Below, one piece after another: positions 2,312-36,013 of a stretch of DNA of 64,000 bases; position 1 is the stretch's first letter, and each line of letters opens with the position of its first letter. The position numbers and the translations under genes were made by a program. The stretch covers positions 62,001 to 126,000 of the forward strand of contig NZ_JAAMFK010000001.1 of the NCBI RefSeq assembly GCF_018437275.1. The letters run 5' to 3'. The notes under the pieces were generated by a model that was not told the origin of the DNA, ran no database searches, and saw nothing but the letters and a program-made list of their open reading frames with translations. Origin of the DNA: Fructobacillus broussonetiae (GTDB lineage Bacteria; Bacillota; Bacilli; Lactobacillales; Lactobacillaceae).

Positions 2312-2401
2312 GGAGATATGGCACAATCTGGTACTGCAGCGGACTCGAAATCCGTCGAGCCGTCGTATGGCGGTGTGCGGGTTCAAATCCCGCTATCTCC
2401 T
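2312..2401 (+). tRNA. tRNA-Ser (anticodon CGA)
   Basis: This class II tRNA can be folded fully by eye. The acceptor stem GGAGATA (2312-2318) pairs with TATCTCC (2394-2400). The D stem is GCA/TGC with GG at 2330-2331. The anticodon stem is 2339-2343/2351-2355 with loop CTCGAAA, anticodon CGA at 2346-2348. A 21-base variable arm has a CCGTC/GGCGG stem. The T stem GCGGG/CCCGC has loop TTCAAAT. CCA is not encoded. The discriminator base at 2401 is T, whereas G is usual for bacterial tRNA-Ser. Its 3' end borders the accessory region, so it could be an integration site. Confidence 0.93.
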
Positions 2402-2418
2402 TAAGACAAATCAAAAGA

Positions 2419-2446
2419 GGATGAGCTTTTGCTCATCCTTTTTTTG
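2419..2446 (+). terminator. terminator of the tRNA-Ser transcript
   Basis: GGATGAGC (2419-2426), loop TTTT, GCTCATCC (2431-2438), then a run of seven T. Confidence 0.9.
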
Positions 2447-2514
2447 TTGTTTTCCAAAGTCAGACCCGAATCATGCTACCATTAGAGAAGACATTTTCCG
2501 AAGGTGACAATCAC

Positions 2515-2562
2515 ATGCAAAATTACATCTTTGAGAATCCCGAAGATTGATTGAATATATAA
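2515..2562 (+). pseudogene. collapsed remnant of a HAD phosphatase gene (paralogue of 6626-7264)
   Basis: An ATG at 2515 with GAAGGTGA upstream opens a frame encoding MQNYIFE, matching MQNFIFD at the start of the intact gene at 6626. A few codons later the frame continues as GAA GAT TGA TTG AAT ATA TAA, matching the intact gene end AAG GAT TGG TTG AAC ATA TAA. The Trp codon has become a stop. About 590 bases between the two ends are missing. The terminator and the sequence behind it also match those after the intact gene, so this is a duplicated and internally deleted copy. Confidence 0.75.
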
Positions 2563-2577
2563 TTGAGTAAAATGGAA

Positions 2578-2603
2578 GCGAATGGGAGCTCATTCGCTTT
2601 TTT
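2578..2603 (+). terminator. terminator left from the HAD phosphatase remnant
   Basis: GCGAATG (2578-2584) pairs with CATTCGC (2591-2597), followed by TTTTTTATTTT. It is the counterpart of the terminator at 7279-7307. Confidence 0.75.
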
Positions 2604-2626
2604 ATTTTGCGTGTCCTAAACGACAT
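2595..2626 (+). repeat. left copy of a 32-bp direct repeat flanking the PBECR4/hdc segment
   Basis: Bases 2595-2626 match 7299-7330 with a single mismatch (A versus T in CCTAAACGACAT / CCTAATCGACAT). The similarity extends left into the HAD gene 3' ends. The two copies bracket about 4.7 kb. Confidence 0.8.
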
Positions 2627-2642
2627 CAAATGATGAATTCTT

Positions 2643-2672
2643 TTGACAATATTTATTTGAGCTATGTAAAAT
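2643..2672 (+). promoter_or_regulatory. promoter of the structured RNA upstream of the PBECR4-like gene
   Basis: A consensus -35 TTGACA lies at 2643-2648. An AT-rich -10 such as TATGTA or TAAAAT follows at about 2663-2672. Transcription would start at about 2675-2680. Confidence 0.6.
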
Positions 2673-2675
2673 AAC

Positions 2676-2832
2676 GATAGAAACAACGTGTTGCGTTGTT
2701 TCGGAAGTAAAGTGTGTTCGGTCAGCAACATGCTCCCGCCGTCGGGATAATGACGGAGGTCGTCTCAATCGTGACTTCTACGGTTCGCTGACAATACATA
2801 TTTCTTAACCGAGGAAGTTCCTCGGTTTTTTA
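2676..2832 (+). ncRNA. structured RNA of unknown family, ending in its own terminator
   Basis: About 150 bases lie between a good promoter and a strong terminator and have no ORF of their own. A 5' hairpin AACAACG/CGTTGTT lies at about 2683-2700. Then GTCAGC (about 2721-2726) pairs with GCTGAC (about 2787-2792) and closes a multibranch region. Inside it are a hairpin pairing CCGCCGTC with GACGGAGG and a second pairing AGGTC with GACTT. There is no T-box, TPP, FMN or PyrR signature and no tandem repeats. The next gene starts 18 bases after the terminator T-run. It may be a free RNA or an attenuating leader; its family is not recognised. Confidence 0.55.
2807..2832 (+). terminator. terminator between the structured RNA and the PBECR4-like gene
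   Basis: AACCGAGGA (2807-2815) pairs perfectly with TCCTCGGTT (2819-2827) around a 3-base loop, followed by TTTT. Expression of the downstream gene from the 2643 promoter would need read-through. Confidence 0.85.
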
Positions 2833-2850
2833 TATGGAAAAAGGTGATAA

Positions 2851-3363
2851 ATGAAAGAGATTTTAGATGATTACCGAACAAGCTTTTGCAAGTACACTGC
2901 AGAAATAAAAACAAGTCAAGAAGAATTCCATGTTGTATTTGAGGAAAAGCAACTGCCTCACTTACTTGGGTTTCATAAATTGTTAAATATACCCAAAGGC
3001 GCTAAGAAGATATTAGGAAAAGTTGATAAAGGAGAATTAACATATACACATGTAAAAGCTGATCCAAATTATTATCTTATTAAAAATAGGATTAATAACT
3101 ATAAGTTTTTGAGAGAAGTTTTTCATCATAGAAAGATAGAGTTCCTGATGAAGAATACGACAAGGAATCCAAGAAGAATACCAGGTGTACGCGTCATTAT
3201 TCCTGATTGTATAAGTAAAAAAGATATGATCATACTTGGCTTGTCAGAAGCTAATGGGTATTATATGCCTTCAACACTTTTTTTAATTCGTTGCCCTAAT
3301 AATTTTATGGATTTACCGAAAATTAAGATTGAAAATATCGAACTTTCTTCTAAAGAAATATAG
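2851..3363 (+). CDS. PBECR4-like domain protein (putative BECR-fold nuclease or toxin)
   Basis: This 170-residue protein has no signal peptide or membrane segment. The block FHVVFEEKQLPHLLGFHKL (about residues 26-44) resembles the F-HLLG motif of the phage-Barnase-EndoU-ColicinE5/D-RelE-like nuclease 4 (PBECR4) family. A middle segment with a KNRINNYKFLREVF helix follows, then a C-terminal strand-rich part, YYMPSTLFLIR. Members are predicted RNases of mobile elements and conflict systems; no activity is shown here. AAGGTG lies just before ATG 2851. The gene is visibly richer in A+T than its neighbours, which suggests transfer. It follows a structured RNA and terminator, an arrangement like a type III toxin-antitoxin pair. 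The family call comes from motif memory and is moderate. Confidence 0.55.
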   Translation: MKEILDDYRTSFCKYTAEIKTSQEEFHVVFEEKQLPHLLGFHKLLNIPKGAKKILGKVDKGELTYTHVKADPNYYLIKNRINNYKFLREVFHHRKIEFLMKNTTRNPRRIPGVRVIIPDCISKKDMIILGLSEANGYYMPSTLFLIRCPNNFMDLPKIKIENIELSSKEI

Positions 3364-3392
3364 GAAACGACTAATTTAGTCGTTTCTCTTTA
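3364..3392 (+). terminator. terminator of the PBECR4-like gene
   Basis: GAAACGACTA (3364-3373) pairs with TAGTCGTTTC (3377-3386), followed by TCTTTAT. Confidence 0.85.
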
Positions 3393-3553
3393 TATTGTAA
3401 AATTGTCTAAAAAGATATCATTAGTATCGAATATAAATACAGTTTTACTTTTTTAACATTGATGTATCAAAAGAGTATAAATAAATTAAAGGCATTTAAA
3501 ATAGAATGTTTCTAATAATATGCCAATGGATCTTTTATTTATGGAGGTAAGAG
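3393..3553 (+). other. AT-rich upstream region of hdcA
   Basis: No ORF is present. It should contain the hdcA promoter (TATAAA-like sequences near 3475 and elsewhere), but no pair of boxes with good spacing stands out. A strong ribosome site, GGAGGTAA, lies at 3543-3550. Confidence 0.35.
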
Positions 3554-4501
3554 ATGAATTTGAATGATTACAAGAAGGCAAGGGAAATCGGGATTGATAG
3601 TACGGCATTGAATAACTATGTCGGCTACTCACGAGGTTACTTGGAGCCTGGCAATATTGGTGAAGGCTATTTGACCGGATTGAAGGTCGATGCTGCTGCC
3701 ACTAAGTTAACTGACGATAATATTCTTGATAACATTTCGTCATACGATCGGGCCGAGGCAAAGAACGCTAATTTGGCTCAGATTAACATGGAGACGGCTT
3801 CATCCTTTACTGGACCACAGGGAAACATTATTGGTTTTGATTTCTTGCATAACAAGGCTTTAGATAATCAAAAGCCAATGTTTACGAAAAAGCAATGGGA
3901 TGGTTCAGAACTACCTATTTATGATGCTAAGCCATTACAAGATGCATTGGTTGAATACTTAGGAACGGTCGATGAACCACGTTTCAAGACTGTTCCAGCT
4001 GCCTTTATCACTTGTGCAAACAAGGGAACGATGGCTAAGCGTCCTAAGGAAGACCGTCCATTGAAGCCTGGTGAAGGTTATGGTGTCTGGTCTGCCATTG
4101 CTTTGTCCATTGCTGACGATCCTGTCCACCACTCTTCGATGTATGTTGAAGATGCAGGTGTTTGGACAGAGTCTGATAACGAACAGGACTTGATTGATTA
4201 CTTGAACACGCGAAGAGCCGCAATGGCACAATCCATCGCAAATTGTGGTGAACATGCTAAGACGACCTTTAAGAAAACGTTTATTGGCTTTGCCCACACG
4301 ATGCTAAAGCCTGGCGAATTCGGTACAGCTATTACGGTTGGACCTTACTTGACGATGCCATTTGACGCTGTACCAAATGCACAGCGGACAAACGCTTCTG
4401 CTGAAGATGCGATGAACACGATGCGTCAGTTGAGTTTGCAAGACTGGTTAAAGGAAATGAATTACGAATCAATTGTTGAGAAGAATAATATCACTTATTA
4501 A
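3554..4501 (+). CDS. hdcA: pyruvoyl-dependent histidine decarboxylase proenzyme
   Basis: The enzyme decarboxylates L-histidine to histamine and CO2 and consumes a proton. At 315 residues it is full length for the Gram-positive pyruvoyl HDC family. The self-cleavage site is TASS at residues 81-84: cleavage between the two serines gives the beta chain and a pyruvoyl-capped alpha chain. Conserved blocks include RGYLEPGNIG, QWDGSELPIYDAKPLQDALV, GYGVWSAIALS and SMYVEDAGVW. The start ATG 3554 follows GGAGGTAA. Antiporter and maturation genes lie directly downstream, so histidine/histamine exchange would give acid resistance and proton motive force. It sits in a region with signs of gain and loss. 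Confidence 0.96.
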   Translation: MNLNDYKKAREIGIDSTALNNYVGYSRGYLEPGNIGEGYLTGLKVDAAATKLTDDNILDNISSYDRAEAKNANLAQINMETASSFTGPQGNIIGFDFLHNKALDNQKPMFTKKQWDGSELPIYDAKPLQDALVEYLGTVDEPRFKTVPAAFITCANKGTMAKRPKEDRPLKPGEGYGVWSAIALSIADDPVHHSSMYVEDAGVWTESDNEQDLIDYLNTRRAAMAQSIANCGEHAKTTFKKTFIGFAHTMLKPGEFGTAITVGPYLTMPFDAVPNAQRTNASAEDAMNTMRQLSLQDWLKEMNYESIVEKNNITY

Positions 4502-4525
4502 TTAAGTCTCTTTCGGAGGAGTATT

Positions 4526-5986
4526 TTGGCTACAAAACAAGCAAAAAAATTAGGAACAATTGGATTAATCGGTTTGATTGTTCCGGCTATGATTGGTGGT
4601 GGAGCGTATGATCTGCCCCAAAACATGGCATCAAATGCTGGATTAATTGGTCAACTACTTGGATGGGCTGTATCAGGTGCCATTATTTGGTGTTTGGTTT
4701 ACTCATTCTTGTTCTTGTCAAAATTACGACCTGATTATACGTCAGGCCTCTACATGTACGCAGAAGATGGATTTGGTAAATTTACCGGATTCTTTGTCAG
4801 TTGGGGCTATTGGATTTGTGAGTGTTTCGCTAACGTCACTTATGCCGTTCTTCTTGCTTCAACATTAGACGCTTTCTTCCCTGGTGTCTTTAAGGGTGGA
4901 AACAATCTTAATTCCATCATCTTGGGAACGGTGATTCTTTGGCTAATGACCGCTCTCGTTTTGAAGGGAATTCAAGGTGCTAGTTGGGTCGACAATATTT
5001 CAACGGCAGTGATTTTGCTTTCACTCGTCTTCTTCATTGTCAGCATGATTTTTGTCTTTGATCCACAAACCTTTACAACAAACATCATGGGAAGCGAGAC
5101 GATTTCGCACTTACAAGATACGAACATAGGCTCACTCTTCCACCAAATTAAGAACACCATGATGGTTACCCTTTGGGTCTTTGGTGGTGTTGAAGGTGCC
5201 GTTGTCTTGTCAGGCAACGCAAAGAGCCAAAAGAATGTTCGTGATGCCACGAAGTGGGGATTCATCATTTGCTTGATTATCTACGCTGCCGTTTCTGTTT
5301 TGGCACTTGGATTCCGCAGTTATGGTGAGATTGCAAACATGGCTTCCCCATCTACCGGGGCTTTGCTATCAATCATTTATGGTCCAATTGGTCGTTTGGT
5401 CATCGGAATCAGTGTGATTATCGCGGTTTTGGCTTCTTGGTTGACTTGGGTTTTGTTACTTTCAGAAATGCCACGTGCTGCGGCTAAATCTGGAACCTTC
5501 CCACAGTCCTTTAAGAAAGTGAATAAGAACAACATGCCTTCTTATTCCATCGTGGTATCCACAATCGTTATGCAGGTAATCTTGTTCTCAACGGCTTTTG
5601 CCGGCAAGGCCTTTAATACCATGTTGACGATTGTTGGAACGATGACTGTTCCACCATACTTGATCTCAATGATGTACCTTTTCAAGATCAGTTTGAATAA
5701 AGAATCGTTTAACCCAAGTGGTGCTCAGATTACGTTCTCACGTACGAAGCCACTCGTTTACTCATTCCTTGCGATTTTAGGTACCCTTTATATGGGTTAC
5801 TCAGCAGGGGTAAAGTACACGGCGCTTTCCTTTATCATTTATGCGCTTGGTATCCCGGTATACATGTGGGCACGTAAGCACATCCCTAGCGAAACGCATT
5901 CAACGATCTTTACGAAGTATGAAAAGATCTTTATTATCTGTATTCTTGCGGTTGCGATTATTAGCTTACTGATTATGTATGCATAG
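4526..5986 (+). CDS. hdcP: histidine/histamine antiporter (APC superfamily)
   Basis: A 486-residue membrane protein of the amino acid/polyamine/organocation superfamily with about twelve hydrophobic helices. The N-terminal GLIVPAMIGGGAYDLPQNM matches the substrate-binding unwound helix of basic amino acid antiporters. The start is TTG 4526 after CGGAGGAG, 24 bases behind hdcA. Exchange of histidine for histamine is electrogenic in the known systems. In most described lactobacilli the permease gene precedes hdcA; here it follows. The role is inferred from family and context and is secure. Confidence 0.92.
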   Translation: MATKQAKKLGTIGLIGLIVPAMIGGGAYDLPQNMASNAGLIGQLLGWAVSGAIIWCLVYSFLFLSKLRPDYTSGLYMYAEDGFGKFTGFFVSWGYWICECFANVTYAVLLASTLDAFFPGVFKGGNNLNSIILGTVILWLMTALVLKGIQGASWVDNISTAVILLSLVFFIVSMIFVFDPQTFTTNIMGSETISHLQDTNIGSLFHQIKNTMMVTLWVFGGVEGAVVLSGNAKSQKNVRDATKWGFIICLIIYAAVSVLALGFRSYGEIANMASPSTGALLSIIYGPIGRLVIGISVIIAVLASWLTWVLLLSEMPRAAAKSGTFPQSFKKVNKNNMPSYSIVVSTIVMQVILFSTAFAGKAFNTMLTIVGTMTVPPYLISMMYLFKISLNKESFNPSGAQITFSRTKPLVYSFLAILGTLYMGYSAGVKYTALSFIIYALGIPVYMWARKHIPSETHSTIFTKYEKIFIICILAVAIISLLIMYA

Positions 5987-5994
5987 GATGTTAA

Positions 5995-6468
5995 ATGGAT
6001 AAGTTTAGAAAACAAGTGAATCACTTGATTGAAAATGAAAAAATCAATCCCGCTAAAATCCTTTTCGGAAAAGATGAAAAGGGACAAGACGCTTGTGTTT
6101 TTTTCGATACCAATTATCTGTATATCAAGACGGAAAGTACGTTTGAAAAGGTTCTGCGTGAGCAGGGAATTTCGACAAAGTTCATTTCTGGCGCGCCAGA
6201 AGGAGCACTGTTGATTCAAACACCTGAATTAACGTTGTCTTTGCATGAGATTCATGAAGGACGAGTGTATGACTTTACTCAAACGCTTGATCCAAAATCA
6301 ATCTACAAAGCGTCATACAATGCGACAGAGCCGTTGCAAAATAGCGTATTAACGAATCCTGAACATGCTGAACTGATTGATCAGCTCCGTTATGAATTAC
6401 AGACGGGACAAATATCCCAACACGATTATGATTCCTTAAATCCTGTTTTACCAAAAGCTGGTAAGTAA
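5995..6468 (+). CDS. hdcB: histidine decarboxylase maturation protein
   Basis: A soluble 157-residue protein, starting 8 bases after hdcP and ending before a strong terminator. Sequence and size match HdcB, found only with pyruvoyl HDC genes and known in Streptococcus thermophilus to be needed to convert the HdcA proenzyme into active chains. It has no membrane segment. The visible part is a mixed alpha/beta domain with an acidic C-terminal third. A hisS gene often follows hdcB in other species; here none does, and hisS lies 6.3 kb away behind a T-box. Confidence 0.88.
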   Translation: MDKFRKQVNHLIENEKINPAKILFGKDEKGQDACVFFDTNYLYIKTESTFEKVLREQGISTKFISGAPEGALLIQTPELTLSLHEIHEGRVYDFTQTLDPKSIYKASYNATEPLQNSVLTNPEHAELIDQLRYELQTGQISQHDYDSLNPVLPKAGK

Positions 6469-12765: not shown

Positions 12766-14076
12766 ATGGCAAAAGCAAGTTTTAAAAAGCCAAAAGGAAC
12801 GGCTGATCTATTTGATAACCAGGTCTTGGCCTGGCAGAAGATTGAACAACAAGCCCGTTTGACTTTTTCACGTTATGGCTACGGTGAAATCCGTACACCA
12901 ATCTTCGAATCATTTGATTTGTTCTCACGTTCAGCTGGTGACACTTCAGATGTCGTGACAAAGGAAATGTATGACTTCATGGACAAGGGTGACCGTCACA
13001 TGGCACTTCGTCCAGAGGGGACGGCAGGTGTTGTTCGTGCCTTTGTTGAAAACAAGCTCTTCGGTCCAGAACACGAAAAGCCATACAAGACCTTCTACAT
13101 GGGACCAATGTTCCGTTACGAGCGTCCACAAGCTGGACGTTTCCGTCAGTTCCACCAAATCGGTGTGGAAGCCTTCGGTTCAACGGAACCAAGCTTGGAC
13201 GCCGAAGTGATTACGATGGTTGTTAAGTTCTTGTCTTCACTGGGATTAAAGGACTTAAAGGTTGCCTTGAACACGTTGGGTGACCAAGATTCACGCAAGG
13301 CATACCGGGAAGCTTTGATTGACTACTTGAAGCCAAACTTCGATAAGTTGTCAAAGGATTCTCAAGTACGTTTGGAAAAGAATCCATTGCGTGTTCTTGA
13401 TTCAAAGGATGAAAACGACCAAGCAATCGTTGAAGGTGCACCAACGATCTTTGATTACTTGTCTGAAGAATCAAAGGCTCACTTCCAAGCGGTTCAAAAC
13501 TACTTGGATGCTTTGGGTATTGAATACGAAATTGATTCAAACATGGTGCGTGGATTGGATTACTATAACAACACCATCTTTGAAGTGATGACGACTGATC
13601 CGAACTTGAAGGGGGCCGCTACCATTGCTGGTGGTGGACGTTACTCTGGTTTGGTCGAAGAATTTGGTGGCCCTGAAACACCAGGTATCGGATTCGGTTT
13701 GGGTGTGGAACGCTTAATTGCCTTGTTGACAGCCCAAGACCAGTTGAACTTGGACGAAGACGGGCTTGACTTTTACATTGCCCACATCGGGGACAACAGT
13801 GTGTTGAAGACTTTGGAATTGGCTACGAACTTGCGTGATCTCGGCTACTCAGCCGACATGGATTTTGAAAATCGTTCCGTGAAGGCCCAATTCAAGACGG
13901 CTAACCGTCGTAAGGCTCGTTTCGTCATTACCATTGGTGATAACGAAGTGGAATCAAACGAGGTTAAGGTTAAGGACATGGTCACTGGAAGCCAAGCGGA
14001 TTTGAACTTGGCTTACGTGAAGGAAAAGATGGAAACTGTGATTGCTGCTTTGTCAGCAGAGGAGGAAGGAAAATGA
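12766..14076 (+). CDS. hisS: histidine--tRNA ligase
   Basis: This class II synthetase (436 residues) charges tRNA-His in the cytoplasm. The N-terminal KGTADLF is followed by motif 2 ([19 protein letters not shown]), the His-specific [12 protein letters not shown], and GGGRYSGL, with the anticodon-binding domain at the C terminus. It overlaps aspS by 4 bases, so translation is coupled. The T-box at 12478-12706 controls both. The hdc cluster lacks its own hisS, so this is the histidyl-tRNA synthetase for the decarboxylating cell. Confidence 0.97.
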
Positions 14077-15857
14077 AGCGGACGACCTATGCAGGTTTAG
14101 TCGATGAAAAGTACATTGGACAAAAAGTCCAATTAGCTGGTTGGGTGCAAAAGCGCCGTAACTTCGGAGAATTAGTCTTTATTGATTTGCGTGACCGCGA
14201 AGGTATCGTCCAATTGACTTTCTCAAACAAAGAAGAAGCAGCTTTGGAAGTTGCTCAAAGCGTTCGTAACGAATACGTTATCGCCGTTGAAGGTGAAGTG
14301 GTTGCGCGTGCCGAAGGGCAACACAACGATAAGATTAAGTCCGGTGGCGTTGAAGTGAAGGTCACAAAGGCCGAAGTACTTGCTGATTCAAAGACGCCAG
14401 TCTTTGATATCAAAGACGATGTTGAAGCTGGTGAAGAACTGAAGCTCCAATACCGTTACTTGGACTTACGCCGCCCAGTCATGCAGAAGAACTTGAAGGT
14501 TCGTTCAAAAATCATGTCATCGGCTTACCGTTTCATGGAAGAACACGACTTCATCAACATTGAAACGCCATACTTGGCGAAGTCTACGCCAGAAGGTGCC
14601 CGTGATTACTTGGTACCATCACGTATCTACCCGGGTTCTTTCTACGCCTTGCCACAGTCACCACAGCTCTTCAAGCAACTCTTGATGGGTGCTGGATTCG
14701 ACCGTTACTTCCAAATTGCTCGATGCTTCCGTGATGAAGATTTGCGTGGAGACCGTCAGCCAGAATTTACGCAGCTCGATTTGGAAACGTCATTTATGTC
14801 TGCTCCTGAAATTCAGGAATTAGTTGGCCACTGGGTACAACACATCATGAAGGATGTAAAGAACTACGACTTGAAGTTGGAAGACATCGATCGTTTGACT
14901 TGGCAAGAATCAATGGATCGCTTCGGTACTGATAAGCCTGACTTGCGTATTCCATACGAAATTAAGAACTTGTCAGACGTTGTGAAGGATTCAGACTTTG
15001 GTGTCTTTGCTAACGCCGTGAAGGACGGGGGAGTTGTTAAGGCTTTGGCCGTTCCTGGTGCTGCTGAATCATATTCACGTAAGGACATCGACAAGCTTGG
15101 TCAATACATCGAACGTTTCGGTGCTAAGGGACTTGCTTGGATGAAGGTTTCAGACGAAGGTTTGACTGGACCAATCGCTAAGTTCTTCGACGATGCAAAG
15201 GCGAAGGAAGTCATGGAAGCCGCTGGTGCCAAGGTTGGCGATCTCTTGCTCTTCGGTGCAGGACGTGCTGACGTGGTAGCTGCTTCACTGGATTACCTTC
15301 GTCGTCAAACGGCTAAGGAAATGAACTTGATTGACCAAGAAACACCATGGCGCTTTGCCTGGATCGTTGACTGGCCACTCTTCGAATACTCAGAAGACTT
15401 TGATCGCTGGATTGCGGCTCACCACCCATTCACTATGCCAAACGAAGAAGACTTGCACTACTTGAACGAAGGCGAAGACCCACACAAGGCACACGCACAG
15501 TCATATGACTTGGTCTTGAACGGTTACGAATTGGGTTCAGGTTCAATCCGTATCCACCGCATGGACATTCAAGAAAAGATGCTCCGCGCTTTGGAATTCA
15601 CGCCAGAACAAGCACAAGAAGCTTTCGGATTCTTGCTTGAAGCCATGGAATACGGATTCCCACCAATGGGTGGAATCGCTCTTGGATTGGATCGCTTGGC
15701 CATGCTCTTGGCAGGACAAGATAACATCCGTGAGGTGATTGCCTTCCCTAAGAATTCAAAGGCCACTGAACCAATGACGGAAGCCCCAACGCCAGTTGAC
15801 GCTAAGCAATTAGCTGAATTGGGATTGGAATCTGACGCAAACGATTCTGCTGAATAA
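14073..15857 (+). CDS. aspS: aspartate--tRNA ligase
   Basis: A 594-residue class II synthetase of bacterial type. It has an N-terminal OB-fold ([20 protein letters not shown]), motif 2 ([22 protein letters not shown]), the bacterial GAD insertion (about residues 300-420) and motif 3 ([15 protein letters not shown]). The C-terminal tail is acidic. The start ATG overlaps the hisS stop as ATGA. A terminator follows at 15880-15926. Confidence 0.97.
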
Positions 15858-24877: not shown

Positions 24878-24903
24878 AAAAAATGTTCAATAGAACAAGA
24901 AAA

Positions 24904-25113
24904 CTTCGGGGTCGGGTGCAAGTCCCAACCGGCGGTAATTCAGTATGACTGATAAGCCCGTGACCTGCTTTTGCAGCTGATTTGGTGAAAATCCAAAGCC
25001 GACCGTACAGTCGGGTATAAAGAAGTTTAAAGACAGCTTTTTTAGGCTGGCCTTTATTTTGCCCCCGCGTGAAATCAAAGGTCATTTTTTTTGGCCTAAA
25101 AAAGGAGAATAAT
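24904..25113 (+). promoter_or_regulatory. FMN riboswitch (RFN element) of ribU with expression platform
   Basis: The aptamer spans 24904-25025, closed by CTTC/GAAG. It shows the conserved RFN strings GGGTGCAAGTCCC, CCGGCGGTAA, GATTTGGTGAAAATCC and GCCGACCGTACAGTC. Behind it CTTTTTTAGG (about 25037-25047) can pair with CCTAAAAAAG just before the start, covering the Shine-Dalgarno AAAGGAG (25102-25108). This suggests control of translation in addition to, or instead of, termination. FMN would turn ribU off. Confidence 0.95.
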
Positions 25114-35855: not shown

Positions 35856-35882
35856 AAAACACGTATTTAATTGCATATAGAA

Positions 35883-36013
35883 CTGGGGTACCTGTTTGGT
35901 TGAGATAACACCCATTGAACCTGTCCGGTTAATACCGACGTAGGGAGTTCGCACAATAAAGCTTTTTTAGCGCCGCTTGTGTATGACTTCCGTCTATCAC
36001 AGGCGGCTTTTTT
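35883..36013 (+). promoter_or_regulatory. TPP riboswitch with terminator upstream of ykoEDC
   Basis: The aptamer 35883-35947 shows the Thi-box pattern GGGGTACC, GGTTGAGATAACACCC, TTGAACCTG and AATACCGACGTAGGGA. The terminator GCCGCTTGTG/CACAGGCGGC (35972-36007) with TTTTTT follows. Thiamin pyrophosphate should shut off the transporter genes by termination. Confidence 0.95.

Follow-up and report, generated by a model that had tools for sequence, protein, structure and literature searches.

A conserved pseudoknotted RNA precedes PBECR4 genes in Bacilli and their phages and is a probable antitoxin

We analysed a stretch of 64,000 nucleotides (nt) of Fructobacillus broussonetiae DNA (contig NZ_JAAMFK010000001.1, positions 62,001 to 126,000; hereafter the window), focusing on an isolated transcription unit located between a transfer RNA (tRNA) gene, tRNA-Ser (2312–2401; anticodon assigned by eye), and the gene for a histidine decarboxylase (3554). 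This unit is a single operon composed of a promoter, a structured RNA, a Rho-independent terminator and a gene for a PBECR4-domain protein (Table 1), in the order typical of type III toxin–antitoxin systems. The same promoter–RNA–terminator–gene order was recognized by eye in relatives of the locus. An initial annotation, made from the sequence alone, had proposed the TTGACA promoter, the non-coding RNA, the perfect terminator and the PBECR4 open reading frame (ORF), all of which were confirmed; the ORF has the 170 codons described, but begins 19 bases past the T-run of the terminator, not 18. The promoter was the best of six promoter-like sites within 2400–3600, where 5.3 were expected, and eight terminator-like sites were found in the same interval compared with 0.5 in shuffled sequences.

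Table 1. Features of the RNA–PBECR4 transcription unit (window coordinates)
Feature	Position	Strand	Details and basis
Promoter, TTGACA 2643–2648 / TAAAAT 2667–2672	2643–2672	+	Spacer 18; 11/12 consensus bases
RNA 5′ hairpin	2680–2702	+	9-bp stem and fold; hairpins at equivalent place in relatives (by eye)
Pseudoknotted RNA core	2709–2796	+	Full-length R1 match (1–92 of 92), 15.3 bits
Hairpin P2, arms 2711–2718 / 2727–2734, loop 2719–2726	2711–2734	+	R1 alignment, sequence
Putative pseudoknot helix, GTCAGC 2721–2726 with GCTGAC 2787–2792	2721–2792	+	Sequence; equivalent helix covaries in relatives
Hairpin P3, CCGTC 2739–2743 / GACGG 2752–2756	2739–2756	+	R1 alignment
GTC 2762–2764 and hairpin P4, 2767–2772 / 2780–2785 (AATCGT / ACGGTT)	2762–2785	+	R1 alignment
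Intrinsic terminator separating RNA and PBECR4 gene	2807–2831	+	Arms 2807–2816 / 2818–2827, 100% complementary, then T's
Ribosome-binding site AAAGGTGA	2840–2847	+	Sequence reading
PBECR4-domain protein, 170 aa, predicted BECR-type ribonuclease toxin	2851–3363	+	Pfam PF18813, phrog_3446, conserved residues
Terminator downstream of PBECR4 gene	3363–3387	+	Terminator scan

The encoded protein matched the Pfam family PBECR4 (PF18813; E 6.4e-10, 40.1 bits with a cut-off of 27) through residues 2–103 only. Nothing else was detected in the Pfam scan at E ≤ 1, neither a ToxN, CptN or TenpN family nor Abi_2, in agreement with the earlier proposal of a type III order with a different toxin candidate. 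The protein belongs to phrog_3446, a PHROG without a named function; NCBIfam and PADLOC 2023 (the latter at E ≤ 1) gave no model for it, and PADLOC gave one weak, unlikely match (14.1 bits) among five of its relatives. PBECR4 has been described as a phage-Barnase-EndoU-ColicinE5/D-RelE-like (BECR-type) nuclease with a predicted H...T/S active site (PMC5512222; here and below, papers are cited for the accessible portions of their texts). In an alignment of 36 rows, in which the window protein is counted twice, H37 and R80 were conserved in 36/36 rows and T142 in 35/36, with S in the remaining row. The histidine in the N-terminal part and the threonine or serine near the C-terminus, as predicted for PF18813, are thus present as H37 and T142.

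Relatives of PBECR4 occur in Bacilli, both in prophages and in genomes. A tblastn search gave 31 phage records (12 of Staphylococcus, 10 of Streptococcus and 9 of Listeria) plus one plasmid record. The genome of the window has a single PBECR4 gene, and among whole genomes the gene was found in 16/301 of the family, 4/13 of the genus and 10/398 of the class, as well as in three other genera, g42 (15/147, several of them weak), g57 (5/81) and g89 (2/19); the g42 loci resemble those of Streptococcus phages and the g57 loci those of Staphylococcus phages. In most of the annotated phage records examined, the gene lies after the lysin gene and close to either the integrase gene or the end of the record, which is the usual site of phage cargo genes.

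To characterize the RNA, we gathered 80 loci with the N-terminus of a PBECR4 gene, 46 of which had non-redundant upstream DNA. Three classes of upstream RNA were distinguished: class A (19 loci, the named ones from Lactobacillaceae, Staphylococcus and Listeria), which resembles rli62; class B (16 loci, Streptococcus where named), which includes Bacilli-1; and class C (three loci, all of the window's genus). The window, locus L014 and six distant genes fell outside these classes. In class A, the loop (approximately 9 nt) of hairpin P2 (approximately 7 bp) pairs with the strand past two hairpins, P3 and P4, forming a pseudoknot. A lack of conserved base pairs, which the initial annotation would have taken as a refutation, was excluded for the relatives: two-sided changes occurred at 22/25 class A pairs overall, including all five pseudoknot pairs, 87.8% of cells were paired versus 72.2 in shuffles, and the covariation score was 0.560, compared with 0.289 ± 0.014 after shuffling and 0.114–0.159 when slid. 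Class B showed the same topology with a covariation score of 0.515 versus 0.256 ± 0.017, its pseudoknot helix varying on both sides at only 1/6 pairs. In an alignment-free test of each loop against its own tail, all 20 class A RNAs with a gene formed at least 5 bp (mean 6.20), while the mean with swapped tails was 4.48 ± 0.28.

A covariance model of 92 positions, R1, was built from 36 class A cores, with classes B and C not in the training set. Rfam family RF01486 (rli62) matched at 142.5 bits directly upstream of a Listeria phage PBECR4 gene (L079), its matches elsewhere being sub-threshold, and RF02931 (Bacilli-1) matched upstream of Streptococcus PBECR4 genes. Although filed as separate and unrelated RNAs, rli62 and Bacilli-1 are two pieces of one superfamily, joined by R1. 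The view that the RNA is unrelated to known families, as first held, must be abandoned, since both are members.

The window RNA (2676–2840, terminator included) has a calculated stability of −57.9 kcal/mol (z −4.1), which none of 200 shuffled sequences reached. The Rfam scan of the window reported no family for this RNA at gathering score, rli62 and Bacilli-1 included, and R1 did not report it with default filters. When R1 was run over both strands of the 64 kb with filters off, the segment 2709–2796 was the best match (E 0.011), the runner-up scoring 9.9 bits. The P4 loop, GACTTCT, is identical to that of the Staphylococcus copies, the TACAT at 2795–2799 is common to many class A and C RNAs, and class A RNAs conserve both GTC and GAC. 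On these modest statistics, together with position and matching parts, the window RNA is read as a diverged member of the R1 superfamily. The GTCAGC/GCTGAC pairing (2721–2726/2787–2792), at first taken for the closing stem of a multibranch fold, is better read as the pseudoknot, because GTCAGC lies in the P2 loop and the loop-to-3′-strand pairing covaries in relatives. In the window RNA the pseudoknot is represented by a single pairing that fits R1, and its covariation comes from the relatives. Similar loop-to-tail pairing was seen by eye at L014, L027, L028, L029 and L069, for which single-sequence searches were not significant. As had been stated, tandem repeats are absent: the only direct repeat in 2600–2850 is one 15-nt pair (87%), TGACAATATTTATTT in the promoter region (2644–2658) and TGACAATACATATTT at the RNA 3′ end (2789–2803).

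At E ≤ 0.05, R1 found the RNA ahead of 37 PBECR4 genes in the non-redundant set of 46. Homologues regularly lacking the RNA, at first named as a possible refutation, were not seen. Of these 37 loci, 19 belong to class A and are part of the training set or close to it; the other 16 of class B and two of class C were untrained. All five PBECR4-bearing genomes of g57 had the adjoining RNA. When RNA class was mapped on the protein tree, five changes were required, one over the minimum, compared with 15.2 after shuffling, as expected for partners. In 8/46 loci the PBECR4 gene was broken and the RNA retained, which fits an inhibitor role for the RNA, although the breakage could be recent. Tight association and matched evolution would fit any RNA–protein partnership, including one in which the nuclease is activated or guided by the RNA, or has it as substrate, and the two together form the active effector. 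An activator, however, would be useless alone in the many loci that lack the gene, and the eight loci with broken genes keep the RNA; we regard this role as highly improbable.

Two loci showed unusual arrangements. A Staphylococcus chromogenes plasmid record (L083) contains three R1 matches (2304–2396, 3211–3304 and 4495–4589; 77.0, 71.6 and 17.1 bits), which surround a broken PBECR4 gene, an integrase gene and a TIR-domain gene. At L035, approximately 1150–1400, two similar hairpin repeats (CTTGTYRGACTTCGGGTGCYRACCCAG) precede a distant PBECR4 gene of the window's genus; they look like a repeat-type antitoxin and gave no Rfam match at E ≤ 1.

The RNA is not confined to loci with the gene. When the class A core was searched by sequence alone and PBECR4 was counted if within 1 kb, 36 cores had the gene, 56 lacked it and 13 were too close to an end; the corresponding numbers were 7, 2 and 1 for the 10 cores in genome contigs and 29, 54 and 12 for the 95 in viral contigs, and the loci collapsed to 12 clusters with the gene and 13 without. 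By R1, 21 places were detected in 19 of 301 family genomes, 10 with PBECR4 and 11 without (one of the latter, L243, retaining a visible PBECR4 gene start), and 12 places in 11 of 81 g57 genomes, five with and seven without. No PBECR4 match was found anywhere in 37 gene-less loci. In these copies the core was usually intact, and the 5′ hairpin was absent, by eye, from many Staphylococcus copies. The pseudoknot was kept, with at least 5 bp, in 32/32 distinct gene-less copies (mean 6.31 bp), compared with 4.21 ± 0.19 for swapped tails, and none of 2000 swaps reached the observed mean. This conservation indicates that the RNA does something by itself.

These data bear on the alternative once named as the principal one, an attenuator or riboswitch acting only in cis, in which the RNA merely governs read-through into PBECR4 in response to a ligand, translation or the protein itself. 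The terminator does lie directly 3′ of the RNA, the Rfam type of rli62 is Cis-reg, and in class B the 3′ strand of the pseudoknot runs straight into the U-run, so that folding could affect termination. Against this, of the 92 class A cores that could be tested, 56 have no PBECR4 gene nearby, and neither do 11/21 (family) and 7/12 (g57) R1 places, yet the pseudoknot persists, and copies between tRNA genes have no adjoining gene to regulate. A purely cis-acting role is thereby weakened and appears unlikely, while cis control on top of an action in trans is possible.

Gene-less RNAs were found in genomes and temperate phages, and also next to tRNA genes of phages. In Lactobacillus phages they lie near terminase genes and tRNAs, and in Listeria phages near the right end. 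Such positions would suit an RNA that primarily serves the phage in another way (for example in connection with tRNA clusters, in packaging or in taking over the host) and that PBECR4 adopted as promoter, leader or antitoxin. Within PBECR4 loci, however, the RNA classes agree with the protein tree, and a class B core only rarely lacks the gene downstream of it (33 of 35 have it; a further core of the 36 was too near an end), rendering this origin quite improbable.

Several gene-less loci contain further elements. Just 3′ of the RNA at L113, L176, L109, L140 (minus strand) and L134, in Lactobacillus and Listeria phage loci, a further small motif with structure, CACACCTCTTRACAATGTG, was noted by eye inside an outer stem whose pairs appear to covary; it is possibly another decoy RNA. 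One viral contig (L157) contains two gene-less copies, 1082–1175 and 1524–1615, approximately 350 nt apart. At L134, L154 and L247 (Listeria phages and one genome), tRNA-Leu-like sequences unreported by ARAGORN adjoin the RNA, as judged by eye, and may be tRNA mimics.

A blastn search with the RNA of Lactobacillus phage SA-C12 matched 253 phage records, 223 of them of Staphylococcus, mostly across 31 nt, and R1 confirmed the RNA in 9/9 phage stretches examined. It lies between tRNA-Trp and tRNA-Met in Lactobacillus phage Bacchae (94.8 bits), between tRNA-Gly and tRNA-Asn in SA-C12 (93.3 bits), adjoins tRNA-Arg in Lactobacillus phage Maenad (91.6 bits) and follows tRNA-Met in Staphylococcus phage K (51.1 bits); the others were Staphylococcus phages B2-102, phi 12 and phi 13 and Listeria phages B025 and A118. 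Bacchae, SA-C12 and Maenad are presumably lytic. The core of phage K (NC_005880.2, 13967–14059) falls within a long non-coding RNA published at 13595–14229 on the minus strand (PMC9241854, section 7, where it is named differently in text and table). Likewise, in kayvirus vB_SauM-515A1 the core (14065–14157) falls within lncRNA1 (13730–14300), which accounts for 2.2% of counts and whose function is given as unknown (PMC7698491); kayviruses are obligately lytic (PMC7698491). As phage tRNA genes also serve against tRNA-cutting defences (PMC13096335), PBECR4 may cut tRNA.

We consider that the module is probably a toxin–antitoxin or abortive infection system, in which a type III-like RNA antitoxin is paired with a predicted BECR-type ribonuclease (RNase) and the gene-less copies are decoys. 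The small RNA probably keeps a predicted RNA-cutting toxin harmless. The original suggestion of a nuclease under the control of a structured RNA without repeats is supported by the upstream association, the covariation and the agreement of RNA class with the protein tree; that suggestion had overlooked the pseudoknot and the known relatives. We infer toxicity, RNase activity, RNA–protein binding, release upon infection and decoy action as follows. One promoter would yield mostly a short pseudoknotted RNA terminating before the gene, and occasional read-through of the terminator would yield the PBECR4 protein, which is predicted to be an RNase that needs no metal and has an H...T active site. 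Both the terminator and the order of the parts are well suited to making far more RNA than protein. The RNA would bind the protein and hold it inactive. Upon failure of host transcription, as in phage infection, the RNA would be depleted first and the RNase would act. The module would be carried mostly by prophages, at the genome end among cargo genes, while other phages and some chromosomes would carry the RNA alone as a decoy antitoxin. An inhibitor explains the pseudoknot kept in gene-less copies, because an antitoxin by itself helps whichever phage or cell is exposed to the toxin.

With about an even chance, the gene-less copies act as RNA antidotes in an arms race between phages and prophages. 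Lytic phages such as K would then carry a highly transcribed antitoxin copy beside their tRNA genes, the kayvirus long non-coding RNA would contain a counter-toxin, and the tRNA clusters would be anti-RNase islands of spare tRNAs and decoys. If the antitoxin model is correct, a BECR-type RNase with a non-repetitive pseudoknot would constitute a second large class of RNA-antitoxin modules, widespread in Bacilli prophages. It would also provide a testable function for two orphan Rfam families and for part of the abundant unexplained RNA of therapeutic staphylococcal phages, as well as a natural experiment on defence and counter-defence, in which one RNA can be compared with and without its toxin.

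Directly downstream of the module lies a histidine decarboxylase (HDC) cluster (HDC, amino acid permease and HdcB; 3554–6465), and elsewhere the window contains flavin mononucleotide (FMN; 24898–25031) and thiamine pyrophosphate (TPP; 35874–35963) riboswitches.

In the literature searched, which left most subscription journals outside, we found no report of a PBECR4–RNA pair, no function for rli62 or Bacilli-1 and no link of either to PBECR4, and no mention of RF02931, RF01486, PF18813 or phrog_3446. The accessible part of PMC5512222 treats polyvalent and solo phage proteins and mentions no associated RNA, unlike the PBECR4 loci described here. A close parallel in locus structure is AbiF/RCd22 of Clostridioides difficile (PMC12373285), a prophage locus with a promoter, a short structured RNA, a terminator and a toxic protein, in which RCd22 binds the AbiF protein and thereby acts both in cis and in trans. 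That system, however, has an Abi_2 protein and two abiF motifs (RF03085), whereas the window protein matches PBECR4 only, and no abiF motif was reported by Rfam scans of the window (gathering score) or of the scanned loci. With the type III systems ToxIN, CptIN and TenpIN (PMC5086642), the module shares one operon of RNA, Rho-independent terminator and predicted endoribonuclease, a pseudoknotted RNA and a link to phages. In contrast to these systems, the module has no tandem repeats, its RNA core of approximately 90 nt being a pseudoknot that encloses two hairpins, and its predicted toxin is of the PBECR4 family instead of ToxN, CptN or TenpN. Because the repeats and the toxin family, both defining features of type III, are lacking, the module is not filed as type III. 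Gene-less RNA mimics in phages are nevertheless common to both: phage phiTE has a pseudo-ToxI RNA, the expansion of which lets it escape ToxIN (PMC3475682).
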